Source of the DNA: Bacteroidales bacterium
GTDB lineage: Bacteria; Bacteroidota; Bacteroidia; Bacteroidales; UBA932
Direction: 5' to 3'
Length of the DNA stretch: 64,000 nucleotides
Assembly: GCA_017437755.1 (NCBI GenBank)
Contig: JAFRXI010000037.1
Coordinates: 62,001-126,000 of the forward strand
Shown here: piece after piece, positions 19,232 through 35,264 of the stretch
Layout: every line of letters begins with the position of its first letter
Numbering within the stretch: position 1 is the first letter of the stretch
Program-made: the position numbers and the translations under genes
Notes under the pieces: generated by a model
What the model saw: the letters and a program-made list of their open reading frames with translations, nothing else
The model's database searches: none
What the model was told of the DNA's origin: nothing

Positions 19232-19239
19232 TATATTTG
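19232..19239 (+). promoter_or_regulatory. -7 element of the first SusC operon
   Basis: TATATTTG is a full TAnnTTTG match, 51 bases before the SusC ATG at 19291. The inferred transcript begins at the foot of the hairpin at 19241-19263. It supports ATG 19291 as the start and excludes the TTG at 19237. Confidence 0.65.
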
Positions 19240-19240
19240 A

Positions 19241-19267
19241 GGTCGTGGATTCTTTCCGCGACCTTTT
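19241..19267 (+). terminator. Hairpin with short T-run between promoter and SusC
   Basis: GGTCGTGGA (19241-19249) pairs with TCCGCGACC (19255-19263) over nine positions, one a G-T wobble, with a five-base loop, followed by TTTT. It could end the upstream operon. Because it starts one base after a good -7 box, it could also stand at the very 5' end of the SusC mRNA as a protective or attenuating stem. Confidence 0.6.
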
Positions 19268-19290
19268 ATGTATCAATTAATGTTTGTGTT

Positions 19291-22200
19291 ATGAGAAGAT
19301 GTGCTATTCTCGCACTGATCGGCATGCTCTTCGCCTTGCCCGTAATCCGGGCCCAGGAAACTGACAAGACCGTATCCGGTAAAGTCGTTGACGACAAGGG
19401 CGTGGAACTCGTGGGGGTGAACGTGATGGTCAAGGGAACCAACATCGGTGTCGCCACTGATGTCAATGGCCGTTATGTCCTGAAAATCAGGTCCTCCGTT
19501 GCCGATCCGGTGATTGTATTCTCGTTCCTGGGAATGCAGACGCAGGAGATCAAGCCTGCTGCGGCTACTGTTGACGTAGTCCTCAAGGAGGACCCTAACA
19601 GTATTGAGAATGCGGTTGTTACCGGTTATGCCACCATCCGGAAGGAGAGTTTTACCGGAACCGCCACCACGGTGAGCCGGGAGGAACTGCTCAAGGTCTC
19701 TCCCAACAATGTGATGAAATCCCTCAGCGTGTTTGACCCTTCCCTCAGGCTGGCGGTCAACAACGAGATGGGTTCCGACCCCAACACCATGCCGGAGTAC
19801 TATATCCGCGGCCGAAGCGGCGTGTCGGATATTACCCAGCTTGACCAGGTTACGGGGGCAGTGGACGAGTTTACGCTGAAGAACAACCCCAGTGCGCCGG
19901 TATTCATACTGGATGGTTTCGAGACCGACATCCAGACCATAGTGGACCTGGATCCCAACCGGATCGAGAGTGTCACCATCCTCAAGGATGCCGCCGCGAC
20001 GGCAATCTACGGTACGCGTGCAGCAAACGGGATCATCGTTATCGAGACAACGACTCCGGCCCCGGGCGCAATAAGGGTGAGCTACTCCGGAAACTATTCC
20101 CTCACTGCTCCGGACGTAAGCTCATACGACCTTATGAATTCTGCGGAAATACTTGAGGCTGAATATCTTGCCGGCCTGTTCTCGAGGGACCCCGAGTCCA
20201 GCAACTGGAATGCCCAGTACAACGCTGCCGGATATACCAACTTCCTGGATTACCAGAATGCCGTTGTGGCCGGCAGGAATACCGACTGGATTTCCAAGCC
20301 GCTGCGCAACGCCTTCAACCACAAGCACAACCTTTCAGTGGAAGGTGGAACCAACGAGCTCCGCTGGGGTGCCGAAGTCAACTATAACGACAACAGCGGT
20401 GTTATGAAGGGTTCGGACCGTACCACCTGGGGCGCCGCCCTCAAGATAGACTTCAACTACAAGGGCCTCCGCATTACCAACCGGTTCAGCTTCAGCCACA
20501 ATGACTCCCAGGATTCCCCTTACGGCGATTTCGAGGACTACTACACCATGAAGCCCTACCTCGACCCGGTGGACCATGAGACCGGAAAGTTCGAGAAGAT
20601 CTTCCGTGTGGTACGTTTCCAGCGCAAGTCTTCGGGAAGTATCGGAACCAACATCCAGAATCCCCTGTATGAGGCCACCCTGCGGTCTTTCAGCCGTTCC
20701 AAGTACACCTCGTTCAAGGATAACCTGGGACTCAACTGGAACATCACCCCGTTCCTGACCGCAAGGGCTTCCGTTTCGGCCGAATACAAGATTTCCGATA
20801 TCGACCGCTTTGTGGATCCGATGTCGGGAGCATTCGTGTCCCAGACCGACGCTTCCCTGCGTGGTACCTACCGTGACAACGACATACGCCAGATTTCATG
20901 GAACGCCAATGCCCAGTTATCGTATTTCCGTTCCTTTGGCGGGCACAACATCAACGCCACTGCCGGCTTCGAGGCCGCCCAGACCAATTCCACCTCGTTC
21001 GTGGCAAACTATACAGGTTTCCTGGACGGCGTGAGCCCTTCTCCCCAGAATGCCATCAGGATGGCTTCCAACCCTACCTATACCGACAGCCGGGCCCGCC
21101 GTGCCGGTCTGTTCGCACAGCTCAACTATTCCTATAAGGATATCTACCTGGTTGACCTGTCGGACCGTTACGAGGGATCTTCGGCCTTCGGCGCAAACAA
21201 CAGGATGGGTAACTTCTACTCTGCCGGACTCGGACTGAACATACATAACTACAAGGCGGTGAAGCAGCTCGGCTGGTTTGACATGCTCAAGCTGAAGGCC
21301 ACATACGGACAGACCGGTAAGGCCAACTTCAGCCCCTATCAGGCGCGTACCACTTATAACGTGATGTACGACATGGCTTATGTAGACCTCTACGGTATGA
21401 CGCTCAAGGCCCTTGGAAACGAGGACCTGAGGTGGGAAAAGGTCAACAAGATGGACGTGGGCTTCGAGCTTTCGGCATTCAGGAACCTCATCCACATTAC
21501 CTTTGATTTCTACAACGAGCTCACCGTAGACCAGGTCCAGTCCCTTGCCATCCCGCTCTCTGCCGGTTTTACCTCCTACAAGAGCAACATGGGTAAGATC
21601 CGCAACCGTGGAATCGATTTCAGGGTGAATCTGAGGGCTTACAGTTCAAAGGATTGGGATGTGTATCTCTTTGCCAACGGCAACCATAATACCAACCGCA
21701 TCGTGGAACTTGGCAGGGCACTTGAAGCCTACAACGCCAGGATCGACGCCCTGTTCAACAGCGAGAGAGACCCCATCAACACCAACGCCCAGGCAAAGGC
21801 CTTCGCAACTGCATTCACCAAGTATGAGGTGGGGAATTCGCTCACGGCCATCTACGGAATGAAGTCGCTCGGGATCGATCCCAATACCGGTAAGGAATTA
21901 TTCGAGAACAGGGACGGTACACTTACTTACGAATGGAACACGTTGCAGCAGCAGTGCCTCGGCGATACCGAACCCCTGCTGAACGGCTCGCTCGGCTTCA
22001 ATGTCCGCTGGAAGAGGCTCTCGATGTTCACGTCGTTCACTTACCGTTTCGGAGGCCAGGCCTACAACAACACCCTGCGCTACATAGAGAACGTCAACCT
22101 GGACCTTCACAGCGGCGACCGCCGTGTCCTTACCGACAGGTGGACCAAGCCGGGCGATGTGGCGGCCCTCAAGAGCATCGCCGACATGTCCCATATAACC

Positions 22201-22425
22201 CGCTCCACCTCAAGGTTTGTCCAGAACGACAATACCTTTACTTTCAACAGTATACAGATCCAGTATACCTTTGATCCCAAGCTTGTGAAGAAGGCCGGCC
22301 TCAGCGGGGCCAGGATAGCGGCCAGCACCTCCGACCTTCTCTATCTTTCCACCATCAGGCGCGAAAGGGGAACTTCCTATCCCTATTCCAGGACCTTCAA
22401 CCTCAGCGTCAACCTTACATTCTAA
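19291..22425 (+). CDS. SusC/RagA-family TonB-dependent outer-membrane transporter
   Basis: 1044 residues from ATG 19291. A signal peptide ending IRAQE is followed by a carboxypeptidase-regulatory-like domain (KTVSGKVVDDKG...GVATDVNGRYVL), a plug with the SusC-type VTILKDAAATAIYGTRAANGIIVIET motif split over ~residues 245-270, and a long beta-barrel ending in aromatic Phe (NLSVNLTF). It imports an oligomeric nutrient captured by its SusD partner, powered by TonB. SusD, DUF4843 and PKD-like genes follow in the same operon. That company, without glycoside hydrolases, hints at a peptide or host glycoprotein rather than a plant polysaccharide; this is inference. Confidence 0.97.
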   Translation: MRRCAILALIGMLFALPVIRAQETDKTVSGKVVDDKGVELVGVNVMVKGTNIGVATDVNGRYVLKIRSSVADPVIVFSFLGMQTQEIKPAAATVDVVLKEDPNSIENAVVTGYATIRKESFTGTATTVSREELLKVSPNNVMKSLSVFDPSLRLAVNNEMGSDPNTMPEYYIRGRSGVSDITQLDQVTGAVDEFTLKNNPSAPVFILDGFETDIQTIVDLDPNRIESVTILKDAAATAIYGTRAANGIIVIETTTPAPGAIRVSYSGNYSLTAPDVSSYDLMNSAEILEAEYLAGLFSRDPESSNWNAQYNAAGYTNFLDYQNAVVAGRNTDWISKPLRNAFNHKHNLSVEGGTNELRWGAEVNYNDNSGVMKGSDRTTWGAALKIDFNYKGLRITNRFSFSHNDSQDSPYGDFEDYYTMKPYLDPVDHETGKFEKIFRVVRFQRKSSGSIGTNIQNPLYEATLRSFSRSKYTSFKDNLGLNWNITPFLTARASVSAEYKISDIDRFVDPMSGAFVSQTDASLRGTYRDNDIRQISWNANAQLSYFRSFGGHNINATAGFEAAQTNSTSFVANYTGFLDGVSPSPQNAIRMASNPTYTDSRARRAGLFAQLNYSYKDIYLVDLSDRYEGSSAFGANNRMGNFYSAGLGLNIHNYKAVKQLGWFDMLKLKATYGQTGKANFSPYQARTTYNVMYDMAYVDLYGMTLKALGNEDLRWEKVNKMDVGFELSAFRNLIHITFDFYNELTVDQVQSLAIPLSAGFTSYKSNMGKIRNRGIDFRVNLRAYSSKDWDVYLFANGNHNTNRIVELGRALEAYNARIDALFNSERDPINTNAQAKAFATAFTKYEVGNSLTAIYGMKSLGIDPNTGKELFENRDGTLTYEWNTLQQQCLGDTEPLLNGSLGFNVRWKRLSMFTSFTYRFGGQAYNNTLRYIENVNLDLHSGDRRVLTDRWTKPGDVAALKSIADMSHITRSTSRFVQNDNTFTFNSIQIQYTFDPKLVKKAGLSGARIAASTSDLLYLSTIRRERGTSYPYSRTFNLSVNLTF

Positions 22426-22440
22426 AAAGGAGGAGAGATC

Positions 22441-23994
22441 ATGAAAAAGTACAATTACATATCAGTTATCGCGATACTTGTCCTGTTGACGGGCTCGGTG
22501 TCCTGCAGCAAGTGGCTCGATGTCCGTTCCAGCGACGAGATTATCGAGAGCGAGGCATTCAAGGAAACCGAGGGCTTCAGGACAGCCCTTATAGGCATTT
22601 ACCGGCAGGTCGCTTCTCCAGACCTTTGGGGAAGGGAACTTTCCTGGGGACTTACCAGCAACCTGGCCAACAATTTTGTCTATGCAAGTTCTGATCCGGC
22701 TTACCGTCCGGCGCTGAACGCCACGGCCGATCCGTATGTCAACTCTACCATCAGGGTCCATATCGATGCCGTCTGGGCAAAGGCATACAATACCATCGCC
22801 AATATCAACGAACTTCTGGACAAGATCGAGTCCAGGGACCCTTCGGAGTTCGAAGTCTCATTCGAGAAGGACGTCATCATGGGAGAAGCCAGGGGCTTGA
22901 GGGGCCTGCTGCATTTTACGCTGCTCAGCCTTTATCGCCCTGCGCCCGTGACCGGTTATAATGGCGAGGCTCTTCCTTATGTTACGACATATCCTGACTA
23001 TCAGCCTGTTACAAAGCAGTGGAACGAGTATGTGAAGCTGATGCTGGATGACATCAAGGAATCGGAGAAACTCCTTTACCATTATGACGTTGAAGAGGGC
23101 CGCAACGGTGCCGTTTTCCAGTTTGGTGCAAACAACATGCAGAACATGGATTACTACCTCTACCAGAATGCCGGAGCCTGGCGCAACGACGGGGCCGTCC
23201 GCGACAATGCGCACGACGCCTTCGGGTTCTTCGCCACCAGGGGATACCGTTACAACTGGTGGAGTGCCAACGCCCTTCTGGCAAGGGTCTACTCCTATCT
23301 GCGGGACTTTGACAATGCGGAGAAATATGCCGACGTCATCCTGGACAACTGGGTGAATGCCAATAACTTCTTCCTCGATACCTCCACCGCCGACCCTGCC
23401 GGCAATCCCAACTTGCTGGATGCCAAGCGCCGTCCCGAGCAACTGCTGGCCTTTTATAATAAGAATGTTTCGGCCAACTGGAAATCAGCTGCCTTGACAT
23501 CGTATTACAAGACCCAGAACCCTGCCACCCTTTATGACGACAAGAATGACTACCGTCTTACGCGCCTTCTTACGGCAGTTTCGGGAACCAATGTGTTTTC
23601 AAGGGTTTGGGAGCCTACGGCGGCCGGTTATTCCACCAATACCAACGTGGAGAAGCATTCCCGCAATCTCATTCCCGTGATCGAACTCCCCGAGATGTAC
23701 TTCATCAAGGCTGAATGCCTGGCCCAGAAGGGTAATATTGAAGATGCCCTCAAGGAGGTGAAGAAAGTACGCGACGCCCGCCAGTGCCTGGTGGTGAAGA
23801 CGGCTGCCGACCTGACCTCGTTCACAGACCAGCTTGTGCTTGAGGCAGAGAGGGAATTCTTTGCCAGGGGAACCGCTTTCCAGTTCCTCAAGAAACTCAA
23901 TTATCCCACCGTGTATAACGGGGCGGCCGTGCGCAAAACCCTGATCGATGGATGGTACGTGCTGCCGATTCCTGACGCCGAGACTAACTTTTAA
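22441..23994 (+). CDS. SusD/RagB-family nutrient-binding lipoprotein
   Basis: 517 residues, starting 15 bases after SusC. The signal ends TGSVSC, giving a lipidated Cys for anchoring on the outer face of the outer membrane. SusD features: KWLDVRSSDEIIESEAF at the mature N-terminus, TPR-like helices (LLHFTLLSLYRP, EMYFIKAECLAQKGN) and a C-terminal LVLEAEREFFARG motif. It forms the lid of the SusC barrel and binds the substrate. The pair is unambiguous; ligand identity cannot be inferred. Confidence 0.96.
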   Translation: MKKYNYISVIAILVLLTGSVSCSKWLDVRSSDEIIESEAFKETEGFRTALIGIYRQVASPDLWGRELSWGLTSNLANNFVYASSDPAYRPALNATADPYVNSTIRVHIDAVWAKAYNTIANINELLDKIESRDPSEFEVSFEKDVIMGEARGLRGLLHFTLLSLYRPAPVTGYNGEALPYVTTYPDYQPVTKQWNEYVKLMLDDIKESEKLLYHYDVEEGRNGAVFQFGANNMQNMDYYLYQNAGAWRNDGAVRDNAHDAFGFFATRGYRYNWWSANALLARVYSYLRDFDNAEKYADVILDNWVNANNFFLDTSTADPAGNPNLLDAKRRPEQLLAFYNKNVSANWKSAALTSYYKTQNPATLYDDKNDYRLTRLLTAVSGTNVFSRVWEPTAAGYSTNTNVEKHSRNLIPVIELPEMYFIKAECLAQKGNIEDALKEVKKVRDARQCLVVKTAADLTSFTDQLVLEAEREFFARGTAFQFLKKLNYPTVYNGAAVRKTLIDGWYVLPIPDAETNF

Positions 23995-24769: not shown

Positions 24770-26368
24770 ATGAAAAAGATATCCATACTGATAGCTTTGG
24801 CTGCCTTTGCCACAGCCGGGTGCATCAAGGACGGGTCCACGGAAGGAACGCCGCTTGCCCCCATCAAGATACAGGCCATGGACGGTTATACGTTCGTGAT
24901 CGGTGAGCCCTCCACTTTCACTCCGGAAATCGAGTGGAACGGGGAGAAGGAATCGGATTACACCTTCAGCTGGAGGCTCAACGGACTCGACGAGATAAGC
25001 ACCGAAAAGGTCCTCAATTACACCTTCCCCGAGGCCGGAACCCAGTATCTGAACCTGACCATAACGAACAAGGGCAACGGGATTACCTACAACCAGGATT
25101 ACGAGATTTCGGTGAACTCGCCTTTCGCCCTGGGTTGGGCCATACTGTCCAAGGGGGCCGGGAATGTGTCGCAGCTCAGTTTTGTCCATATGGAGTCATT
25201 CAAGCTCTATCCGGACATCTACGCTTCAATGCATTCTGACAAACCCCTCGGAAAGGGCCCCGTGGCCATTGCAAGCCATTCCGTCGCCAAGGCCGACGAG
25301 ATATGCGTCATGCAGGATGAGGGAGGCTGGGTTGAACTGGACGGCTCCAACTTTGCCATAGTGAGTTCCGTTGAAAAGGAGTTCATAGACGGCAGGTATC
25401 CCGATGAGGATGGCGGATTCGCTCCCGCCTCGGTCCATTTCACCCAGAGGGGGGCCGAGTTCGTAATCTCCCGCAGCGGCAAGGTTTATGACAGGGTAAC
25501 CGCCAATCCCACAACAGCTTCCACCCTCATGAACGCCTACTATTATGCCAGCGTGCCATGGTTCTACAAGGGCTATGCAGAGCCCACCAAGTTCACCTAT
25601 TCCACGCTGTGGCCCGGACAGTATTGCATACCCCTGTTCGACGATGCCAACAAGCGCTGGGTGCCTTTCGGGGTCACTTACAGCTCCCCCAGGAATATCC
25701 AGGGCATGGTATGGGGAGGGACAAAACCTTCGGCCGACTTTGATTACATTGCAGGCATGGCCTCCGACGTGAATATCGTGTATGCCGAGACCACGGGTGA
25801 TACCGGTGCCAAGTTCACGCTCTTCTCCATCTTTGAAAAGGATGGCAAGCTGTATGCCGACAAGGCCCTGTGGACTTCGCCCACAAGCGCTGGAAATGTA
25901 TCGCTTTCCGGTTATGAGCAGAAGGAACTCCCGGAAGGTTACGAGCTTTCCGCCTCCACTCCTTTCTGGTTGATGAGGACATATTCAACAGGGGAATACA
26001 GCACCGATCCGTTCCTGCTCTTCGGCCAGGGAAGCAAGCTCTACTTCTATCATTTCCCCACCGGGGCCGTGTCGCTTGTGAGGGATTTCAGCAAGGGCAA
26101 GACTGCATGCGGAGGTAATGTGGTTTCCTTCCAGCAGAACGGCAATGCCAAGCAGGTGGGCGTGCTCACCTCCGACGGTCACTTCTACGTGCTGTCATTC
26201 TCCAAGAATGACGCCATGGGCCTGATCCAGAACAATATAGATCCCGAGGATCCCGACAACAACAAGCTTGAGCTTGCCCATGTGTCCGGAATCCCCGGTG
26301 ATCCTGTCCAGGTTATCTTCAAGTACGGGAAGGCCGCCAACTGGCAGCAGTCCAAGATCGACTACTAG
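24770..26368 (+). CDS. PKD-like surface lipoprotein
   Basis: 532 residues from ATG 24770 (an upstream TTG at 24761 would add three residues before a normal signal). The lipobox ATAGC gives a lipoprotein. An N-terminal PKD-like Ig fold (YTFSWRLNGLDEI...YTFPEAGTQYLNLTIT) is followed by NSPFALGWAILSKGAGN and a ~380-residue propeller-like region. The paralog at 56932-58419 has the same plan ([29 protein letters not shown]). It is the last gene of the operon; its TAG shares CTAG with the stop of the convergent trpB2. Probably an extracellular ligand-binding accessory protein. Confidence 0.82.
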   Translation: MKKISILIALAAFATAGCIKDGSTEGTPLAPIKIQAMDGYTFVIGEPSTFTPEIEWNGEKESDYTFSWRLNGLDEISTEKVLNYTFPEAGTQYLNLTITNKGNGITYNQDYEISVNSPFALGWAILSKGAGNVSQLSFVHMESFKLYPDIYASMHSDKPLGKGPVAIASHSVAKADEICVMQDEGGWVELDGSNFAIVSSVEKEFIDGRYPDEDGGFAPASVHFTQRGAEFVISRSGKVYDRVTANPTTASTLMNAYYYASVPWFYKGYAEPTKFTYSTLWPGQYCIPLFDDANKRWVPFGVTYSSPRNIQGMVWGGTKPSADFDYIAGMASDVNIVYAETTGDTGAKFTLFSIFEKDGKLYADKALWTSPTSAGNVSLSGYEQKELPEGYELSASTPFWLMRTYSTGEYSTDPFLLFGQGSKLYFYHFPTGAVSLVRDFSKGKTACGGNVVSFQQNGNAKQVGVLTSDGHFYVLSFSKNDAMGLIQNNIDPEDPDNNKLELAHVSGIPGDPVQVIFKYGKAANWQQSKIDY

Positions 26369-27726
26369 TTGAGTGCGTCTGCGTCCTTGATGAACCGGGC
26401 GATATCCTCGTCGGACACAGTGTAGTCCTGGAGGTTGCCCTCAAGATACTGGTCGTAGGCGCTCATATCCACGAATCCGTGACCGGAGAGGTTGAAGAGA
26501 ATGGTCTTCGCCTCTCCGGTTTCCTTGCACCTGAGGGCCTCGCGGACGGTGGCAGCGATGGCGTGGCAGGATTCCGGAGCGGGGATTATGCCCTCGGTGC
26601 GGGCAAACAGGACGCCCGCCTTGAAGCTCTCATTCTGCTGGATGTCAACTGCTTCCATGAATCCGTCCTTGAGAAGCTGTGACATGATCACGCCAGCCCC
26701 GTGATAGCGGAGGCCTCCGGCGTGGATGTTTGCGGGTTTGAAGCCGTGACCCAGGGTGTACATGGGGAGGAGCGGAGTGAGTCCTGCCTCGTCGCCAAAG
26801 TCGTATTCGAATTTTCCCCTGGTGAGCTTGGGGCAGGCCGAGGGTTCGGCGGCTATGAAGCGGGTCTTCTTCCCCTCCTGGATATTGTGCCTCATGAAGG
26901 GATAGGCGATGCCGCTGAAGTTGGAACCTCCTCCGAAACAGGCGATTACGATGTCGGGATATTCGCCGGCGAGTTCCATCTGTTTTTCGGCTTCAAGGCC
27001 GATGACTGTCTGGTGGAGACACACGTGGTTGAGAACCGAGCCCAGGGTGTAACGGCATCCCGGTGTGGTGACCGCAAGTTCGATGGCCTCCGAGATGGCG
27101 CAGCCCAGGGAGCCGTTGTCGTTGGGGTTGGCGGTGATTATATCCTTGCCGGCCCTTGTGGACATGGAAGGGGAGGGGGTGATGGCGGCACCGAAGGTCT
27201 GCATTATGGAGCGCCGGTAGGGCTTCTGGTTGTAGCTTATCTTCACCATGTAAACGGCGCACTCCAGGCCGAACTTCTTTGCGGCGTAGGAGAGGGCACC
27301 GCCCCACTGGCCGGCTCCGGTCTCGGTGGTTATGTTGGTGATTCCCTGCTGCTTGGCATAGTAGGCCTGGGCCAGGGCGGAATTCAGTTTATGGCTGCCG
27401 GCAGGGCTTACGCTCTCGTTCTTGAAGTAGATGTGGGCGGGGGTGCCAAGGGCTTCCTCCAGTTCATAGGCCCTCACCAGCGGGGTGCAGCGATAGTAGG
27501 AATACTGCTCCCTCACCGGCTCCGGTATGGGGATCCATTCATGCTCCCTGTCGAGTTCCTGGTTGGCGCACTCCTCGCAGAAGACCGGATAGAGGTCCTT
27601 GGGGGCGAGCGGTTCACGGGTGGCCGGATTCAGGATGGGAAGCGGCTTGTTGGGCATGATGGCCTGGATGTTGAACCATGCCGTGGGAATTTCGCTCTCT
27701 GGGAGCATGAATTTTTTCTGTCTCAT
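26365..27726 (-). CDS. trpB: Tryptophan synthase beta-like enzyme (TrpB2)
   Basis: 453 residues from ATG 27726. Fold-type II PLP enzyme: the PLP lysine lies in GSHKLNSALAQAYYA, the phosphate cup is CFGGGSNFSG, and TETGAGQWGGALSYAA matches the TrpB COMM region. The long N-terminal part (IPTAWFNIQAIMPNKPLP...LYPVFCEECANQE) and the length above 430 identify the TrpB2 subfamily, which works without a TrpA partner. No other trp gene is near, so it probably makes tryptophan from serine and free indole. A Trp-rich leader peptide and a terminator precede it, so its expression is likely controlled by tryptophan supply. Confidence 0.93.
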   Translation of the reverse strand: MRQKKFMLPESEIPTAWFNIQAIMPNKPLPILNPATREPLAPKDLYPVFCEECANQELDREHEWIPIPEPVREQYSYYRCTPLVRAYELEEALGTPAHIYFKNESVSPAGSHKLNSALAQAYYAKQQGITNITTETGAGQWGGALSYAAKKFGLECAVYMVKISYNQKPYRRSIMQTFGAAITPSPSMSTRAGKDIITANPNDNGSLGCAISEAIELAVTTPGCRYTLGSVLNHVCLHQTVIGLEAEKQMELAGEYPDIVIACFGGGSNFSGIAYPFMRHNIQEGKKTRFIAAEPSACPKLTRGKFEYDFGDEAGLTPLLPMYTLGHGFKPANIHAGGLRYHGAGVIMSQLLKDGFMEAVDIQQNESFKAGVLFARTEGIIPAPESCHAIAATVREALRCKETGEAKTILFNLSGHGFVDMSAYDQYLEGNLQDYTVSDEDIARFIKDADALN

Positions 27727-27749: not shown

Positions 27750-27785
27750 AAAAAAAACTGCGCGAAGGGTAAGTCTTCGCGCAGC
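27750..27785 (-). terminator. Intrinsic terminator in the trpB2 leader (attenuator)
   Basis: On the minus strand CTGCGCGAAG (27784-27775) pairs perfectly with CTTCGCGCAG (27767-27758) around a seven-base loop and is followed by eight Ts (27757-27750). It lies 24 bases before the trpB2 ATG and 29 bases after the leader-peptide stop, so it would stop transcripts before the gene. GCTGCGC of its 5' arm (27785-27779) can instead pair with GCGCAGC (27838-27832) overlapping the Trp codons. Confidence 0.9.
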
Positions 27786-27813
27786 GTATCGGATGCATAT
27801 ACGGCGGGGCGGC

Positions 27814-27867
27814 TTACCACTTTGAGTGAAAGCTGCGCCACCAGAATATGTTCACGTTCATTGTCAT
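27814..27867 (-). CDS. Trp-rich leader peptide of trpB2
   Basis: A 17-residue ORF, MTMNVNIFWWRSFHSKW, with a second possible ATG at 27861. Three of its residues are Trp: two tandem UGG codons in the middle and one directly before the UAA stop. Rare Trp at this density, placed between a promoter and a terminator ahead of a tryptophan synthase gene, is the hallmark of a ribosome-mediated attenuator. The UGG just before the stop also resembles tryptophan-sensing arrest peptides. The exact switching scheme is not resolved: a ribosome waiting at the tandem Trp codons would cover the only obvious antiterminator segment, whereas one waiting at the last Trp would leave most of it free. Confidence 0.85.
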   Translation of the reverse strand: MTMNVNIFWWRSFHSKW

Positions 27868-27875
27868 GTCTTTTG

Positions 27876-27906
27876 CAAAAGTAGTGAAATAATTTTTACT
27901 TGCAAG
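27876..27906 (-). promoter_or_regulatory. Promoter of the trpB2 leader transcript
   Basis: On the minus strand CTTG (27906-27903), a 19-base spacer and TACTTTTG (27883-27876) fit the -33/-7 pattern. The start would lie near 27870, only a few bases before the leader-peptide ATG. Confidence 0.65.
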
Positions 27907-27926: not shown

Positions 27927-29621
27927 TTATTCTGTCAAATCGCGGGTAATCCGGTCGCAGGTGTAGGTCCTGGTCTCGGTGCTGCCGGGGAACCTGGCCT
28001 TGGCAACCACTCTCCAGGAGGTGAGTTCGGAGGCCGGCTTGTCGAGTTTGATGTACCACCAGTTCTCCGACCTGTCCCAGTGGTACGTCCAGCTGGTCCT
28101 TATTCCGCTGACCTTGGTGAGGTGGCAGTTGGCGCAGTAGTCATAGATCCTCTTGTTGGCGAAGGTCATCTTTTCCGATTTGCCGTCGTGCTCCAGGGTT
28201 ACCTCCCAGTCTTCGTCGCCGTTGTATATATGGGCCAGGAGGAAGTTCCCGCCGGCAAACAGGCTTTCCTTGCTCCAGGCGTACTGGTGCGACCAGTCGG
28301 AATCCTTGTCGTAGACGTCGTTGGAGTCGTATACCCTCATCTTTTCCCCGCCGTCGTGAAGCGGACGGTATTCCCAGCTGGAGAAGTCGCTGCCCTTTAC
28401 GTTATATACGTAGAATCCGGCCGGGGCGCCGTCGGGGCTGTATCGGGAATACCAGAAATTGCCCATGGGAACCCCGTGGATGCGCTCTATTACGGGACGG
28501 CCGTTTTTGGCGTTGACCTTGTATTTGTAGCTCTCGCAGATGTGGGCGTGGCCGGAGAAGATATAGGCGCTGCCAAAGGCCGAAAGCTGCTCCAGCATGT
28601 CTTCGCGGTGGGGGATGCCGTCAAAGCCTCGGACGTGGCAGTGCTGGAGGATGACCACCATCTTGGAGGACTTGTAGGTGACATGGCCGAGGTCGTGCAC
28701 CAGCCAGTCGTAAACCTCGTCGGTGAGGCCGTTCTGACCCTCGGAGGGAAGGGCGGTGCCGCTGCTGGAAGGGCCCTTACGGGCTATGAAGTTGTCCAGG
28801 GACACAAAATGGACGTTACCCACGTTGAATGAATAGCAGGTGGGACCGAACGCGGCGGAGTAATACAGTTCGGTGCCGCGGTCGAATCCGTCGGAGCCCG
28901 CCATCCGGGAGTTCCCGGTACGGCCGTCGTGGTCGTGATTCCCGATAACGGTGTACATCGGGAGATACTTCCCGGCCCCGTATTCGGCGCTTCCAAGGGC
29001 GCCTTTTGCCTGGGTGTAGGTCTCCAGGTCCTTGGCATTGTTGATGATGTCGCCGAGGGCCACCCCGAAAACTGGGCCTGCCGGGGCGTTCTCCCGGAAG
29101 TACCTGCCGATTTCCTGCATGGCCGAGGTCTTGAACTTGTTTGCGGTTGCCGCATCCCGGATGTGGATGTCGCCCAGGACGGCAAAGGAAAAGGCGTCGC
29201 TGTCGCCAGACAGCCTTGTCAGGGTAAAGTCTTTACGGTTTGTTTCCTTCGGGTCGATCTTCTGGTAGAATGACGGAAGGTGCGAGCCGCTGTCCTGGCC
29301 GATAGCATAGCCTGAAGGCAGGCTGTACCATACGAACTTGCTTTCCGCGTTGGCCTTCATCTGGTACACGCCGTTGGCGTCGGTGGCGGTGAACCGGAAT
29401 CCGTCGGTAACGGGAACGGCCTTTACCGGGGCCCCGGTTGTGTCCTTGATGATTCCAAAGAGGTTGTTGCCGTCCAGAATGCGGGTTCCGTTTATGGTGT
29501 CGTCGGCGGGGGTGTCGGGGACATCCGGTGTATCGGGACCGGAATCCGGCTCAACCGCTTTCTTTGAAGCGCAGGCCCCAAGCAGGCCGGCCAGCAGATA
29601 TAGGAAAAATCTTCTTGTCAT
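27927..29621 (-). CDS. Calcineurin-like metallophosphoesterase lipoprotein
   Basis: 564 residues from ATG 29621. Signal with lipobox LLGAC, then an Asp/Pro-rich linker and a carboxypeptidase-regulatory-like N-domain (GIIKDTTGAPVKAVPVTDG...ATDANGVYQM). The phosphoesterase core has the dimetal motifs GDIHIRD, GVALGDIIN, IGNHDHDG and FSGHAHICE. The last ~190 residues match the C-terminal domain that accompanies this family in Bacteroides. It is probably an envelope phosphodiesterase or phosphatase; the substrate is unknown. It is transcribed away from the gene at 29719 from a promoter whose -33 box abuts that of the divergent gene. Confidence 0.88.
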   Translation of the reverse strand: MTRRFFLYLLAGLLGACASKKAVEPDSGPDTPDVPDTPADDTINGTRILDGNNLFGIIKDTTGAPVKAVPVTDGFRFTATDANGVYQMKANAESKFVWYSLPSGYAIGQDSGSHLPSFYQKIDPKETNRKDFTLTRLSGDSDAFSFAVLGDIHIRDAATANKFKTSAMQEIGRYFRENAPAGPVFGVALGDIINNAKDLETYTQAKGALGSAEYGAGKYLPMYTVIGNHDHDGRTGNSRMAGSDGFDRGTELYYSAAFGPTCYSFNVGNVHFVSLDNFIARKGPSSSGTALPSEGQNGLTDEVYDWLVHDLGHVTYKSSKMVVILQHCHVRGFDGIPHREDMLEQLSAFGSAYIFSGHAHICESYKYKVNAKNGRPVIERIHGVPMGNFWYSRYSPDGAPAGFYVYNVKGSDFSSWEYRPLHDGGEKMRVYDSNDVYDKDSDWSHQYAWSKESLFAGGNFLLAHIYNGDEDWEVTLEHDGKSEKMTFANKRIYDYCANCHLTKVSGIRTSWTYHWDRSENWWYIKLDKPASELTSWRVVAKARFPGSTETRTYTCDRITRDLTE

Positions 29622-29646
29622 GGTTCTGCAATGCGCATTTTGTCTA

Positions 29647-29676
29647 CAAAAATACAAAAAATGCTTAGTTTGCAAA
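29647..29676 (-). promoter_or_regulatory. Promoter of the metallophosphoesterase gene
   Basis: Minus strand TTTG (29676-29673), 18-base spacer, TATTTTTG (29654-29647). The start falls near 29643, about 20 bases before ATG 29621. The -33 box forms one half of the palindrome TTTGCAAA (29669-29676). Confidence 0.65.
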
Positions 29677-29700
29677 AGTTGGGAATTAATCCTAACTTGC
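29669..29700 (+). promoter_or_regulatory. Promoter of the divergent lipoprotein gene
   Basis: TTTG (29669-29672), a 20-base spacer and TAACTTGC (29693-29700), one mismatch from TAnnTTTG. The -33 box is the other half of the palindrome TTTGCAAA, so the two divergent promoters stand back to back. Confidence 0.6.
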
Positions 29701-29718
29701 AGGAAATTTCTTGAATCC

Positions 29719-30435
29719 ATGAAAAAGTTGCTTGCCCTTTTCCTGTCGGCCGCAGCGGTCTGCTGCTGCACCGGGGTATCACCCGGGGTGGAAAATCCTG
29801 ATAACGGTCAAGTTACAACCGATGACCCTTCCGGACCACCCGATGATCCCGATTACGACCTTTCCGGCGGCTGCCCTGCGATAGACCTGGGACTGTCGGT
29901 GAAGTGGGCTGCATGGAACATAGGGGCCAAGGACGAAAAGTCGCTCGGAACCTATTTCGCCTGGGGCGAGACGGCCGGCAAGAGCGATTATTCCTGGGGC
30001 GGGTACGCATTCGGGAACTATAACAATGTGAGTCCGGACTGGGGGCTTACCCATCCGGTGGATTCCAGGGGACGGCTCCTCCCGGAGAACGATCCCGCCA
30101 CAAAACTTTGGGGCAAGCGCTGGCGCACTCCCACCAGGGCCGAGATGGAGGAACTTTGCAACACCGGCAAGGTGCCCTGGATAATTGAGACTGACAGGAA
30201 TGACAATTTCCTGGGCGTCACGGTGTGCAGGTATATAACCGTAATCAACAGTCTGCCGGTTCCGGATGTCAAGGCGACCTCAAACCGGGATGAGATTTTC
30301 CTGCCCGTCACCGGTTACAGGGACAATTCCTCGCTTGAATCGTCCGGTTACTATGGCTTATACTGGACATCTTCACTTGCATCGCAAAAGCACAGCGCTT
30401 CCTCGCTGATGTTTTCTGAAACAGATGACGCCTAG
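29719..30435 (+). CDS. Fibrobacter-paralogous-domain lipoprotein, cut by an in-frame TAG
   Basis: 238 residues from ATG 29719: signal MKKLLALFLSAAAVCCC, an Asp/Pro-rich linker, then the Fibrobacter succinogenes major paralogous domain pattern (IDLGLSVKWAAWNIGA, TYFAWGETAGKSDYSWGGY, KLWGKRWRTPTRAEMEEL, YYGLYWTSSLASQ). The frame stops at TAG 30433-30435, but the next codons in the same frame read AVVDMYRNLGMQIRAVTDD before TGA at 30493-30495; NLGMQIRAV is just how these domains end (compare GLSVRPV). The TAG thus replaces one codon, possibly GAG. It removes the last beta strand, so the product may be misfolded unless the codon is read through or the base is wrong. Confidence 0.8.
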   Translation: MKKLLALFLSAAAVCCCTGVSPGVENPDNGQVTTDDPSGPPDDPDYDLSGGCPAIDLGLSVKWAAWNIGAKDEKSLGTYFAWGETAGKSDYSWGGYAFGNYNNVSPDWGLTHPVDSRGRLLPENDPATKLWGKRWRTPTRAEMEELCNTGKVPWIIETDRNDNFLGVTVCRYITVINSLPVPDVKATSNRDEIFLPVTGYRDNSSLESSGYYGLYWTSSLASQKHSASSLMFSETDDA

Positions 30436-30525: not shown

Positions 30526-31941
30526 ATGTATAATCCTTTATCGGCGAATGCCGGGGAATTCATCTGCCATGATGAGATAACGGAATCGCTTTCCGAGGCC
30601 GCCCGGGAGGGCGGAAACCGGAGCCGCGTGTTGGAGATACTTGAAAAGGCGTCCCGCCTGAAGGGGCTGACCCACAGGGAGGCCGCCATACTGATGGCCT
30701 GCTCCGACCCCTCCCTCGAAGAGATGGTTTTCTCCCTGGCAAAAGAGATAAAACACCGCTTCTACGGCAACAGGATAGTGCTTTTTGCACCGCTCTACCT
30801 TTCAAATTACTGCATAAACGGCTGCGTCTACTGCCCCTACCATGCCAAGAACCGGACGATTCCCCGGAAGAAACTGTCGCAGGAGGAGATCGAAGCCGAG
30901 GTCCGCGCCCTTATCCGGCTCGGTCACAAGCGGCTGGCCCTTGAAACGGGGGAGGATCCGGTGCACAGCCCCCTGGAGTATGTGCTGGAGTCCATCCGGA
31001 CCATATATTCGGTGAAGGAAGGCGGGAACAGCATCCGCAGGGTAAACGTGAATATAGCAGCCACCGACGTGGAGTCGTACCGCAGGTTGAAGGCTGCCGG
31101 CATCGGAACCTATATCCTTTTCCAGGAGACCTACAACCGGGAAAGGTATCTCAAGCTGCATCCCACGGGGCCAAAGGGCAATTATGAGTGGCATACCGAG
31201 GCCATGGACCGCGCCCAGGAAGGCGGCTGCGACGATGTGGGAATAGGCGTGCTCTTCGGCCTTGACAACTATATGTATGAACTCGTGGGCCTGCTGATGC
31301 ATGCCGAGCATCTGGAGGCGCGCTTCGGCGTTGGGCCGCATACCATAAGCGTCCCGAGGATCTGCCCGGCCGGCGGCATCTCCACGGCCGATTTTCCCGA
31401 CGCCCTTCCGGATTCCATCTTCCGCAAGCTTGTGGCGGTGCTCCGCGTGGCCGTCCCGTACACCGGGATGATAATCTCCACCAGGGAGTCGCAGCGGATG
31501 AGGGAGCAGCTGCTGGACTGCGGCATTTCCCAGATCAGCGGCGGTTCCCGCACCAGCGTCGGCGGCTATACCAGCGTCGAGCGGCACGACGAGACTTCCC
31601 AGTTCGACGTTTCCGACCGGCGTTCCCTGGACGAGGTGGTGGGCTGGCTTCTGGACAACGGACATATCCCCAGTTTCTGCACCGCCTGCTACCGCGAAGG
31701 CCGCACCGGCGACCGGTTCATGTCCCTCTGCAAGAGCGGTAAAATCAGCCTCTGCTGCACTCCCAATGCGCTTATGACCCTCAAGGAATACCTCATGGAC
31801 TATGCTTCGCCCTCCACACGCGGGAAAGGGGAGGCCCTTATCGCCCGCAGCCTTGCCGACATACCGGAGGGCCGCGTCCGCGACATGACGGTGGAGCGCC
31901 TCGGCCTGATAGAGCAGGGCCGCAGGGACTTCAGGTTCTGA
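30526..31941 (+). CDS. hydG: [FeFe]-hydrogenase maturase HydG (radical SAM tyrosine lyase)
   Basis: 471 residues. The radical-SAM cluster motif CINGCVYC (CX3CX2C) is near residue 95, and the C-terminal auxiliary cluster is formed by CTAC and a Cys 23 positions later (CX2CX22C). It cleaves tyrosine to give the CO and CN ligands of the H-cluster. Length, LETGEDPVHSPLEY and the GGSRTSVGGYT segment separate it from ThiH. It is followed after 7 bases by hydF and converges on the hydrogenase structural genes. hydE is not in the window. Confidence 0.96.
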   Translation: MYNPLSANAGEFICHDEITESLSEAAREGGNRSRVLEILEKASRLKGLTHREAAILMACSDPSLEEMVFSLAKEIKHRFYGNRIVLFAPLYLSNYCINGCVYCPYHAKNRTIPRKKLSQEEIEAEVRALIRLGHKRLALETGEDPVHSPLEYVLESIRTIYSVKEGGNSIRRVNVNIAATDVESYRRLKAAGIGTYILFQETYNRERYLKLHPTGPKGNYEWHTEAMDRAQEGGCDDVGIGVLFGLDNYMYELVGLLMHAEHLEARFGVGPHTISVPRICPAGGISTADFPDALPDSIFRKLVAVLRVAVPYTGMIISTRESQRMREQLLDCGISQISGGSRTSVGGYTSVERHDETSQFDVSDRRSLDEVVGWLLDNGHIPSFCTACYREGRTGDRFMSLCKSGKISLCCTPNALMTLKEYLMDYASPSTRGKGEALIARSLADIPEGRVRDMTVERLGLIEQGRRDFRF

Positions 31942-31948
31942 AAATACT

Positions 31949-33025
31949 ATGGAACGGGTGCAAATAGCTTTTTTCGGGAGGACCAACAGCGGGAAGTCGA
32001 CGCTGGTGAATGCGATATGCGGGCAGCAGGTGTCGCTGGTGAGTGACGTCCCGGGGACCACTACGGATCCGGTGCGGAAGCTGGTGGAACTGCCTTATGG
32101 GATTGGCCCGGCCGTGCTTGTGGATACTGCGGGTTATGGCGACGAAGGGGAACTCGGTGCCCAACGTGAACGTCTTACGAGTCAGGTGATCGACGGCACC
32201 GACGTTGCCGTGCTCCTCCGCACCGGGCATCCTGCCGACGACCGTTGGGAACGGTTGCTCAGGGATGCCGGCGTGCCGGTAGTCTTTCCCGGACCGGACC
32301 GGGAATCCATTCTGAAAAGCATCGCCGAGGCACTTCCACCGAGGGAGAAGCGCTTCCTTACCGGGAGGCTGGTGCAAAAGGGCAGCCGTGTGCTGCTGGT
32401 GATGCCGCAGGACAGCGAGGCGCCCGAGGGGAGGATCATACTGCCGCAGGTCCAGGTGATAAGGGAACTGCTTGACAGGGGCTGCACTGCAGTCTGCTGC
32501 ACTCCGGAGTCGCTGTATGGTTCGCTGAAGGCCCTTGGCGCGGCCCCGGACCTTGTAATAACTGATTCCCAGGTATTTACCGAGGTGGACAGGGCCATTC
32601 CAAGGGAGACTCCTCTGACCTCGTTCTCGGTGCTTCTGGCCGGCGCCAAGGGGGATGTCCGCGTTCTCGTGGAAGGCGCCGCCGCCATAGACCGTTTGAA
32701 GCCCGGGGACAGGGTGCTCATCGCGGAAGCCTGCTCACACGTACCTGCGTCCGAGGATATCGGCCGGGTGAAGATTCCGGCCCTGCTGATGAAAAAGATG
32801 GCCGGTCAGGCCGGCGGGCTGAAGGTCGACATCGCCGCCGGGAACGACTTCCCGGAGGACCTCAGGCCCTACAGTCTGATTATCCACTGCGGTGCCTGCG
32901 TGGCCACAGGGACGCTGGTGATGTCCAGGATAAAAAAGGCACTCCGCGCGGGAGTGCCAATTACGAATTACGGTATTGCCCTGGCAAAGCTCAAGGGTAT
33001 AATTGACCGTATATCAATTCCTTAG
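31949..33025 (+). CDS. hydF: [FeFe]-hydrogenase maturation GTPase HydF, shortened G domain
   Basis: 358 residues, about 40 shorter than usual. Present: P-loop GRTNSGKST, the switch segment DVPGTTTDPV, DTAG (G3), the central dimerisation domain (ILPQVQVIRELLDRG), and the cluster-binding CSH plus HCGAC with EDIGRVKIP between. Missing: after GVPVVF, where HydF has NKxD (G4) and about 30 residues later the G5 loop, the sequence passes at once to PGPDRESILKSIAEALPP. Guanine recognition should therefore be impaired, while the scaffold part that carries the diiron precursor to HydA is intact. The frame is continuous across the gap. Its TAG overlaps the TAA of convergent hydC (TTAG, 33022-33025). Confidence 0.93.
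   Translation: MERVQIAFFGRTNSGKSTLVNAICGQQVSLVSDVPGTTTDPVRKLVELPYGIGPAVLVDTAGYGDEGELGAQRERLTSQVIDGTDVAVLLRTGHPADDRWERLLRDAGVPVVFPGPDRESILKSIAEALPPREKRFLTGRLVQKGSRVLLVMPQDSEAPEGRIILPQVQVIRELLDRGCTAVCCTPESLYGSLKALGAAPDLVITDSQVFTEVDRAIPRETPLTSFSVLLAGAKGDVRVLVEGAAAIDRLKPGDRVLIAEACSHVPASEDIGRVKIPALLMKKMAGQAGGLKVDIAAGNDFPEDLRPYSLIIHCGACVATGTLVMSRIKKALRAGVPITNYGIALAKLKGIIDRISIP
32931..32958 (-). terminator. Intrinsic terminator for the hydBAC operon, inside hydF
   Basis: Reading the minus strand, GGCACTCC (32958-32951), a five-base loop and GGAGTGCC (32945-32938) form a perfect eight-base stem followed by six Ts (32937-32932). It lies 64 bases beyond the hydC stop, in the strand opposite the hydF codons for KKALRAGVP. 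It would end the hydrogenase transcript after a short antisense overlap with hydF. The matching purine run on plus gives no termination signal for hydF itself. Confidence 0.85.
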
Positions 33026-33501
33026 TCGTCGAATTCGGCAACTATCTTCTTGATGTCGGAAGGGTTGAGACGGCCGTAGACCTTCTCGCCGATGGTGGCT
33101 ACCGGGGCAAGGCCGCAGGCACCCACGCAGCGGAGGCAGTCTAGCGAGAATCTGCCGTCGGGCGTGGTTTCGCCCACCTCTATGCCAAGGACCCTCTTGA
33201 ACTCTTCCAGGACCTTGTCGGAACCGCGGACATAGCAGGCTGTTCCAAGGCATACTGAAACCGGATATTTTCCCTTGGGGACCATGGAGAAGAACGAATA
33301 GAACGTTACCACTCCGTAGACCTTCTGTGCCGAGATGCGCAGTTGCCTGGCGATTACGCGCTGGACCGCTTCGGGCAGGTAACCCAGGGTGTTCTGAGTC
33401 TCGTGAAGGATGCTGATCAGTTCTCCGGGGTCGTTATTGAAATTGCGGCAGATCTCCTCGGTCTTGCGGAGAGCTTCGCATGATACTTTGATCTCACTCA
33501 T
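33022..33501 (-). CDS. hydC: [FeFe]-hydrogenase subunit HydC (NuoE-like)
   Basis: 159 residues. A helical N-terminus is followed by a thioredoxin-like [2Fe-2S] domain with ligands in CLGTACYVRG and CLRCVGACG, the NuoE/HndA pattern. In trimeric NAD-linked hydrogenases this subunit joins the flavin subunit to the hydrogenase. It is the last gene of hydB-hydA-hydC, two bases after hydA. No part is missing. Confidence 0.95.
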   Translation of the reverse strand: MSEIKVSCEALRKTEEICRNFNNDPGELISILHETQNTLGYLPEAVQRVIARQLRISAQKVYGVVTFYSFFSMVPKGKYPVSVCLGTACYVRGSDKVLEEFKRVLGIEVGETTPDGRFSLDCLRCVGACGLAPVATIGEKVYGRLNPSDIKKIVAEFDD

Positions 33502-33503
33502 GG

Positions 33504-35264
33504 CTACTTGACGGTTTTATCAAAATAACGGGTGTGAAGGAGGTGGTGCGAGCGTTCGCCCAGCGGCTCCCCGAGGAATTCCCTGTAGAGTTTCTGGATG
33601 TCGGGATTCTCGTGGCTCTTGCGGATGGGCTTGCCCTCGTCCTCGCGGTAGATTGCACGGGCACGGGCCTTGATGACCTCCACGTCGCCGTGATGATATG
33701 GCTGTCCGGCACCGTCGATGCAGCCTCCGGGGCAGGCCATTACCTCCACCACGTGATAATCGAGTTCTCCGCTGCGGAGTTTGTCCATGAGGTAGCGGGC
33801 GTTGCCCAGGGTGTGGGCCACGCAGACCTTGAGCGGGAATCCGGCCAGGTCGATGGTCGCCTCCTTGATGCCGTCCAGGCCGCGGACTTCCTGGAATTCG
33901 ATCCTGGGAAGGGTCTTGCCGGTGTACACCTCGTAAACGGTGCGGAGGGCGGCTTCCATGACCCCGCCGGTGGCTCCGAAGATGGCGGCCGCACCTGAGC
34001 TTTCGCCCAGCGGCTTGTCAAAGTCGGTGTCTTCCAGCGAGCGGAAGTCGATGTTGGAACGCTTGATGAGGCGGGCGAGTTCGCGGGTGGAGATGCTGTA
34101 GTCCACGTCGGGATTGCCGTCAACCTTGAATTCGTCCCTTTCGCACTCGTATTTCTTTGCAAGGCATGGCATTATGGAAACCACCACCAGTTTCTCGCGG
34201 GGGATTCCCATCTTCTGGGCCCAGTAGGTCTTTGCAATTGCGCCGAACATCTGGGCGGGCGACTTTGCCGATGAAGGGTATTCCAGGAGGTCGGGATAGT
34301 TGTGCTCGTAGAAGTTGACCCATGCGGGGCAGCAGGAAGTCATTATGGGGAGTTTCACGTCCTTGTCCCCGCCGAGGAAGGCCTTGAGGCGGGAGAGTAT
34401 CTCCGCACCTTCCTCCATGATGGTAAGGTCTGCCCCGAAGTCGGTGTCAAACACGTAGTCAAAGCCGAGGCGGCGCAGTGAAGTGGCCAGTTTTCCGGTG
34501 ACTATGGTGCCGGGTTCGTATCCGAATTCCTCGCCGAGGGCCACCCTCACGGCCGGGGCGGGCTGGGCCACCACGACCTTGTCGGGGTTGCAGATGTCGT
34601 CGAGGAGACGGTCGGTATTGTCCCTCTCGGTAAGGGCGCCGGTGGGGCACACCGCGACGCACTGTCCGCAGTAGGTGCAGTCGGTTTCGGAGAACATCCG
34701 GTCGAAGGTGGGGGCGATGGTGGTGTCAAAGCCACGGCGTACCGCGCCGAGGACACCCACAGTCTGGACATTGTTGCAAACGCTCTCGCAACGGCGGCAG
34801 AGGATGCACTTGTCCATGTTGCGGGTGATTGCGGCGGTGATTTCCTTCTTGCGGGACGACTGTTCGCCCTTGTATTGCATTTCCCTGATATTGAAGCGGG
34901 TGACAAGCTCCTGGAGCTCGCAGTCACCGCATTTGGGGCAGGTGAGGCAGTCGTTGGGATGGTCGGAAAGTATGAGTTCGGCCACTGTCTTGCGGGCACG
35001 TACCACGCGGGCGGAGTTGGTGAGGACAACCATTCCCTCCGTAACCGTGGTCGCGCATGCAGGGGCGAGGTTGCGCCTTCCGGCCACCTCCACCACGCAG
35101 ATGCGGCATGATGCCGGAGAACTCTTTACGCATGTTCCCTTCAGGTCGATGTGGCAGAGGGCGGGAATCTTGATGCCCACGGTCTCGGCCGCGTCAAGCA
35201 GGGTTGTGCCCTTGGGCACGCAGACGGCCCTGTTGTCTATGGTAAGGTTTATCATGTTTTCCAT
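33504..35264 (-). CDS. hydA: [FeFe]-hydrogenase catalytic subunit HydA (group A3 type)
   Basis: 586 residues. Order: N-terminal [2Fe-2S] ferredoxin domain (CHIDLKGTC, CRICVVEV), the His-ligated cluster (HPNDCLTCPKCGDCELQ), two [4Fe-4S] clusters (CILCRRCESVCNN, CTYCGQCVAVCPTGAL), then the H-cluster domain with TSCCPAW, MPCLAKKYE and MACPGGCIDGAGQP (usually GGGQP). A C-terminal tail to HTRYFDKTVK completes the domain. It reduces protons or oxidises hydrogen. With HydB and HydC it forms the cytosolic trimer that couples NADH and ferredoxin to hydrogen. An alternative start is the ATG at 35255. Confidence 0.97.
   Translation of the reverse strand: MENMINLTIDNRAVCVPKGTTLLDAAETVGIKIPALCHIDLKGTCVKSSPASCRICVVEVAGRRNLAPACATTVTEGMVVLTNSARVVRARKTVAELILSDHPNDCLTCPKCGDCELQELVTRFNIREMQYKGEQSSRKKEITAAITRNMDKCILCRRCESVCNNVQTVGVLGAVRRGFDTTIAPTFDRMFSETDCTYCGQCVAVCPTGALTERDNTDRLLDDICNPDKVVVAQPAPAVRVALGEEFGYEPGTIVTGKLATSLRRLGFDYVFDTDFGADLTIMEEGAEILSRLKAFLGGDKDVKLPIMTSCCPAWVNFYEHNYPDLLEYPSSAKSPAQMFGAIAKTYWAQKMGIPREKLVVVSIMPCLAKKYECERDEFKVDGNPDVDYSISTRELARLIKRSNIDFRSLEDTDFDKPLGESSGAAAIFGATGGVMEAALRTVYEVYTGKTLPRIEFQEVRGLDGIKEATIDLAGFPLKVCVAHTLGNARYLMDKLRSGELDYHVVEVMACPGGCIDGAGQPYHHGDVEVIKARARAIYREDEGKPIRKSHENPDIQKLYREFLGEPLGERSHHLLHTRYFDKTVK

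Follow-up and report, generated by a model that had tools for sequence, protein, structure and literature searches.

The closest described systems include Trp_leader (RF00513), which we take to be the attenuator of the proteobacterial trp operon, and tnaC, the arrest peptide of the tryptophanase operon, in which a short Trp-containing leader peptide exerts a Trp-dependent control that is Rho-dependent and relies on arrest at the peptide end. A further family, Bacteroid-trp (RF01692), is listed in a table of Weinberg et al. 2010 (PMC2864571), the accessible text of which gave no mechanism for it. For Corynebacterium diphtheriae, a trp attenuator has been predicted upstream of trpB2A, according to the available excerpt of PMC1262725. 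Leader-peptide attenuation in the transcriptomes of Bacteroidetes is treated in general terms in PMC7366714 and PMC9723704, and leader genes are treated likewise in PMC4833913. Within the CC-licensed PMC literature searched, with subscription papers outside the scope, no attenuator before a stand-alone trpB2 was described.

Here we describe a probable arrangement of this kind in a window, by which we mean the whole stretch of 64,000 nucleotides that was analysed, from a gut bacterium of rumen type that belongs to the Bacteroidales. We estimate the probability that a classical-type, ribosome-mediated trp transcription attenuator controls the stand-alone trpB2 of the window at about 0.86. This reading is built on comparative sequence analysis, which identifies a predicted leader, its Trp codons, covarying 2:3 and 3:4 helices and WW leaders before the trp operons of the genus.

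All parts of the locus lie on the minus strand, in the order promoter, 8 nt, a 17-codon leader ORF, a hairpin followed by U8, 23 nt and trpB2. The leader ORF (27814..27867, ATG at 27867) encodes MTMNVNIFWWRSFHSKW and stops at TAA; it contains TGG TGG as codons 9 and 10 (27838..27843), the presumed sensor, and closes with TGG TAA (27819-27814). The predicted protector hairpin 1:2 (27796..27850), obtained by folding, holds the Trp codons within its 5´ arm. The core of strand 2, GGUAAG (27813..27818), covers the last codon and the stop codon and pairs with the core of strand 3, CUUACC (27768..27773), in the terminator loop, position 27818 to 27813 facing 27768 to 27773. The intrinsic terminator 3:4 with U8 (27750..27784) has a perfect 10-bp stem, CTGCGCGAAG/CTTCGCGCAG, with the 7-nt loop ACTTACC (27784-27758), and is followed by T8 at 27757-27750. 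trpB2 (26365..27726, ATG at 27726) was recognized by NCBIfam and encodes 453 residues. The predicted promoter (27876..27905), composed of TTG (27905-27903), a 19-nt spacer and TACTTTTG (27883-27876), resembles the Bacteroidetes -33 TTTG / -7 TAnnTTTG consensus given in the accessible part of PMC7366714. The original prediction had listed a promoter, a 17-residue peptide with WW and a final W, and a perfect terminator with T8 before trpB2, and all of these are read directly on the minus strand. The 132-nt leader RNA folds with -48.7 kcal/mol (z -4.85), which is equalled by 0 of 200 shuffles, and shuffling the 160 nt that precede trpB2 produced a short ORF containing WW in 2 of 2000 cases.

A co-oriented gene (27927-29771, minus strand), metallophosphatase-like by eye, ends just upstream of the leader promoter, and an NCBIfam search of part of it (27930-29633) gave no match; read-through from this gene would likewise meet the attenuator. 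Elsewhere in the window, a SusC/SusD-like pair was noted by eye at 19237-23994, and ORFs at 30526-35264 appear by eye to be HydG- and HydF-like, presumably for hydrogenase maturation, beside a NuoE-like protein and an iron hydrogenase.

The window gene is assigned to the TrpB2 kind by NCBIfam, scoring 595 bits against TIGR01415 (cut-off 518.85) and 695.8 bits against NF009057 (cut-off 366). Its product would convert indole and serine to tryptophan. As reported in the accessible part of PMC11535334, TrpB2 of Bacteroides thetaiotaomicron (BT_RS23500) aided an E. coli delta-trpA strain only beside wild-type cells, and this dependence on co-culture suggested to the authors the use of secreted indole by TrpB2. 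The host genome of the window (2.88 Mb in 76 contigs, 84.87% complete) was searched for other tryptophan genes. At this completeness of about 85%, trpA, trpE and trpC (indole-glycerol-phosphate synthase) are provisionally absent; so is trpB1, for which only trpB2 itself matched (146.7 bits versus a cut-off of 392.45). Tryptophanase was also provisionally absent with a narrow model that matches 4 of 14 control genomes.

The upstream regions of related trpB2 genes were compared, using the best 80 of 588 trpB2 from GTDB genomes, which are thus close kin, and 30 whole-genome loci including the window; a partial match (L028) and a region with its start cut off (L082) were excluded from the leader counts. 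A leader ORF with WW or WWW is present in 71 of the 108 usable regions (the window and four duplicates included, 67 distinct), compared with a mean of 0.58 in dinucleotide shuffles and 0 on the reverse strand, which indicates that the leader ORF is not due to chance. Its presence follows protein identity to the window: 61/66 at 82% or more, 8/35 between 74 and 82%, and 2/7 below. The genus sample adds 45 leaders, to give 116 in total and 97 distinct. The leaders were chosen for WW; 73 of the distinct ones have WW as their Trp cluster and 24 have WWW, with R directly after the cluster in 81/97. The original prediction, in which a Trp attenuator mediated by ribosomes precedes a stand-alone trpB2, was checked in these relatives for a loss of Trp-codon or stem conservation, and the check did not refute it: the Trp codons and the stems are both conserved.

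Other leader forms were noted during this comparison. A second type (L008, L010, L015, L069 and L078) has a peptide tail DISGQA or similar and an in-frame UUCCGGUCAGG-like stretch that can pair with the terminator, i.e. the same logic in another sequence, and the pairing in L008 is no better than in shuffles. WWW leaders also occur in a more distant trpB2 clade of ~55-57% identity (L261, L262 and L263, from genomes G030, G429 and G376), these genomes having been picked because the leader model matched them.

A promoter box NANNTTTG precedes the leader ATG by 4-10 nt in 70 of the 97 distinct leaders, compared with 2, 10, 6 and 15 of 97 at four other offsets, and the strict form TANNTTTG lies at this distance in 30/97. 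The 5´ UTR would be ~4-6 nt long, with transcription starting a few bases before the leader ATG, because the box is centred at -7 in the accessible text of PMC7366714. In B. thetaiotaomicron, ~3.7% of 5´ UTRs are shorter than 10 nt, according to the same excerpt. If the leaders truly start almost at the RNA 5´ end, the sensing ribosome would load by an unusual route.

To characterize the helices, 61 of the 62 leaders with a GTRAG element near the stop codon were aligned without using structure (L029 was left out); because GTRAG was the criterion of selection, strand 2 is anchored in the alignment by that selection. In the antiterminator 2:3, CUGUAAGUC at the stop codon pairs with GACUUACAG, which comprises the terminator loop and the top of the stem, and the pairing continues into the 5´ arm. 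Of the 845 cells of this helix in the 61 leaders, 93.4% are paired (88.5% in shuffles), and sliding the strands lowers pairing to 26-39%. Nine of its 14 pairs are changed on both sides, which 13 of 500 shuffles reach, and it has 39 doubly changed cells versus 8.2 in shuffles. The terminator helix 3:4 is 90.7% paired in the same leaders, with 9 of 11 pairs doubly changed and 124 doubly changed cells versus 38.9 in shuffles. The protector 1:2, whose 5´ arm contains the Trp and Arg codons, is paired in 83.6% of cells; its covariation is weak, as 5 pairs with double changes are reached by 297 of 500 shuffles.

An intrinsic terminator was detected by script in 65 of the 67 distinct leaders, and the strand 2/terminator duplex was searched in these 65 from 9 nt after the last Trp codon. 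The duplex begins 10-22 nt after the last Trp codon in all 65, with coordinates that may include an unpaired terminal base. Of the 65 leaders, 49 beat at least 95 of 100 shuffles, 34 beat at least 99 of 100, and 16 fall below the 95-of-100 level.

The choice of strand 2 differs from that originally proposed. The pairing of GCGCAGC with GCUGCGC had been taken as the antiterminator; it is formed in 56.0% of cells in the alignment versus 56.5% in shuffles, and this candidate was rejected for want of conservation. It also overlaps the Trp codons, so a stalled ribosome would cover the pairing, which would give the wrong sign of control. The standard E. coli scheme, which had been said not to fit directly, fits once the strand at the stop codon is taken as strand 2.

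The W next to the stop codon had suggested arrest at the peptide end. In one such reading, the peptide end would arrest the ribosome on free tryptophan, as in the tna leader. The window does have TGG immediately before TAA, but it is the 1 leader among the 97 distinct ones whose final residue is W, and the last residue is L in 50/97. Moreover, in 15 of the 62 GTRAG leaders the frame closes 6-11 nt before the element while the element is still present, which indicates that it is kept as RNA and not as peptide. Most aligned relatives end in CTG TAA GTC and the window ends in TGG TAA GCC, and correspondingly the window terminator loop ACTTACC replaces ACTTACAG of the relatives. The window alone has G-C at columns 29/102 in place of the usual U-A, with both sides changed. 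Because of this double change in 2:3, we read the terminal Trp codon as a probable by-product of the upkeep of the RNA helix. Arrest at the final W was accordingly rejected on its 1/97 occurrence and the early frame closure, and we consider it highly improbable.

Several observations were counted against the attenuator reading. The nearest full-length trpB2 genes by identity, L031 and L032 (94 and 93%) and L002 and G377 (92%), are all without a leader; the window 2:3 duplex is among the weaker ones (-14.6 kcal/mol, 6-bp core, reached by 6 of 100 shuffles); and the covariation of 1:2 is slight. The 16 leaders short of the 95-of-100 level weigh in the same direction, as do three results given below: 40 of 102 trpB2 upstream entries of the genus sample without a leader, 109/161 genus genomes without a match to the leader model, and the prevalence of the complete terminator at equilibrium. 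The leaderless nearest genes and the weak duplex, which beats just 94 of 100 shuffles and has mismatches at columns 28/103 and 35/96, would also fit a decaying leader, in which the terminator works and the antiterminator is too weak, which would leave trpB2 with a low constitutive expression or dependent on read-through from the upstream gene. However, the core of 2:3 contains the compensatory change from U-A to G-C, the window keeps its WW codons, open frame, promoter box and perfect terminator, and folding in the stalled state still yields antitermination (below), which makes a decaying leader unlikely.

Among the relatives without a leader upstream of trpB2 are L002, L016, L031, L032, L039 and L047. 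In all of these but L002, a terminator-like hairpin was seen by eye between an upstream MFQTIGW-type gene and trpB2; a terminator may thus have remained after the loss or replacement of leader and promoter.

Partial transcripts of three leaders (the window, L006 and L035) were folded with the ribosome at defined positions, using the known ribosome footprint; the positions at the first and the last W share one edge and are treated as a single state. When half of the terminator 3´ arm has been transcribed and the ribosome edge is 9 nt beyond the Trp codons, the antiterminator forms in the window and the terminator probability is 0.00, compared with 0.43 when the ribosome is at the stop codon. 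L006 and L035 behave likewise, with 0.00 in the stalled state versus 0.49 and 0.41 at the stop codon. Once the whole terminator is transcribed, it wins in every state (0.96 stalled and 0.95 at the stop codon in the window). Since the complete terminator wins at equilibrium even with a stalled ribosome, antitermination in this model would have to be kinetic, i.e. a matter of timing.

We propose the following course for the attenuator. Transcription would begin a few bases before the leader ATG, and ribosomes would translate the 17-codon peptide, in which two Trp codons adjoin. At low levels of charged tRNA-Trp, the ribosome would stall at codons 9-10 and open 1:2, leaving strand 2 (GGUAAG) free to pair with strand 3 (CUUACC) before the 3´ arm is complete, and RNA polymerase would continue into trpB2. 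With ample tryptophan, the ribosome would move on to the stop codon and cover strand 2, and the terminator would form. Without translation, 1:2 and 3:4 would both form and transcription would stop. The start of transcription, ribosome stalling, the response to Trp and kinetic antitermination are the steps that we infer.

The occurrence of the leader across the genus was surveyed with a covariance model built from trpB2 leaders alone. Under strict filters, this model matches 52 of 161 genus genomes and leaves 109/161 without a match; one match (G420:C157) showed no WW leader and was taken as chance, and at another (G448:C25) the leader is present and the gene behind it lies off the contig. The model also picks up the trp-operon leaders of G001, G016, G377, G433 and G449, which speaks for a common origin of the two kinds of leader. 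trpA exceeds its cut-off in 22/161 genomes. The start of the trp operon is readable in 18 of the trpA-bearing genomes, and all 18 have a WW or WWW leader; G366, G405, G418 and G448 ran off contigs, which made the start unreadable, and no trpB1 start motif was recognized in G384 and G433. In one genome, G018, trpB1 exceeds its cut-off, trpA is missing and no leader is seen. The genus trp operons (L212-L226 except L216, L115, L116, L259 and L264) start with trpB1 and have leaders such as MKTRMNAYWWWRLLQLPEVVRG, and a similar WWWR-LQL type of leader also precedes some trpB2 genes (L058, L067 and L079).

In the genus sample, a leader is present at 62 of 102 trpB2 upstream entries and absent from 40. 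trpA is present in 3/62 entries with a leader versus 12/40 without (Fisher p 0.0009), a count in which G360 enters twice, with one stretch of only 85 nt. The tree of trpB2 requires at least 12 changes in the state of the leader. Of the seven independent pairs on supported branches, an average of 2.5 show trpA running opposite to the leader and 0.2 show it running with the leader (median sign-test p 0.5), and pairs taken the other way round give 1.5 and 0.0 (median p 1). It is therefore only suggestive that the trpB2 leader goes with the absence of trpA, as an association beyond shared descent cannot be shown from these pairs. In G016 and G377, the two genomes nearest to the window on the tree, the situation of the window is reversed: a leader stands before the trp operon, and trpB2 is without one.

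In our best reading, the window would hold a trp attenuator of a new lineage that guards stand-alone indole salvage, with a predicted response to Trp. The mechanism is known, and the target gene and evolutionary setting are new. It is conceivable, although we would put it at somewhat below even odds, that the trp operon was lost within the genus, that a leader akin to that of the operon came to control trpB2 more than once, so that attenuation would track the last enzyme able to make tryptophan, and that apparent Trp auxotrophs run a neighbour-fed, Trp-regulated indole salvage from leaders that start almost at the RNA 5´ end. The TrpB2 family appears in NCBIfam as merely a 'TrpB-like pyridoxal phosphate-dependent enzyme', with one model a hypothetical equivalog, and an attenuator retained before trpB2 would independently indicate that the cell treats TrpB2 as a tryptophan source. 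If so, indole cross-feeding would be a regulated supply route. In a gut-genome reconstruction (PMC9026213), the tryptophan variants are delimited by TrpA, TrpB, TrpC and the other enzymes, and a genome with TrpB2 alone would probably be scored as an auxotroph there. The 97 distinct leaders, in turn, show attenuator logic that survives turnover of the pairing sequences.

No Rfam family matched the window at the gathering threshold, so that its leader belongs at this level neither to RF01692 nor to RF00513; among 18 related loci only a tRNA was matched, and the thresholds of the two families were not reached. This bears on whether a ligand-binding riboswitch, a T-box or another non-ribosomal sensor governs the terminator, for which the very stable fold of a leader that precedes one lone biosynthetic gene might speak. 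The E-value listing for the leader, however, holds Bacteroid-trp, a microRNA and a snoRNA and no T-box or riboswitch, and what is conserved is an open frame in which Trp codons adjoin; with no family at gathering in the window, we regard such a sensor as exceedingly improbable.

Below the threshold, the window and its relatives show matches to the two trp families. The window scores 24.1 bits against RF01692, with an E-value of 1.5 over all Rfam that is weak by itself (gathering 49), and it aligns over the full length of the model (1-131 of 131) with the WW codons in register. Among 20 relatives, RF00513 appears below threshold in nine (E 2.5e-4 to 7.6, six at 0.013 or less), the best reaching 35.4 bits (E 2.5e-4; gathering 41), and RF01692 in two (E 7.7 and 9.3). 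Among 16 trp-operon loci of the genus, RF01692 is found below threshold in seven (34-44 bits, E 0.06-3.7) and RF00513 in two. In the class, RF01692 was found in 14 of 295 genomes, above the cut-off in ten, and all 14 loci have a WW leader ORF. The gene behind them is trpE in nine, trpB1 in four, trpD in one and trpB2 in none; ten of the 14 were checked by NCBIfam, where the five trpE tested fall below the trpE cut-off, and the other four trpE were assigned by eye.

The window leader shares with Bacteroid-trp a hairpin over the Trp codons, which in the window is a predicted one. In contrast, RF01692 precedes trp-operon genes in 14/14 loci and the window leader precedes trpB2, a position that is new against that sample. 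Compared with tnaC, which acts with the opposite sign, leaders of the window type have no conserved Trp at the peptide end. The predicted attenuator of C. diphtheriae differs in that it belongs to an actinobacterium and to a gene that stands with trpA beside a second operon, trpB1EDGC, as the excerpt has it, and is not a lone salvage gene. With RF00513 the leaders have in common the scheme of adjacent Trp codons, a protector (here predicted), antiterminator and terminator, and 9/20 relatives align to it over the full length; the window itself, for which RF00513 is not listed, differs from it by a Bacteroidetes promoter, a very short predicted 5´ UTR and the control of trpB2 alone.
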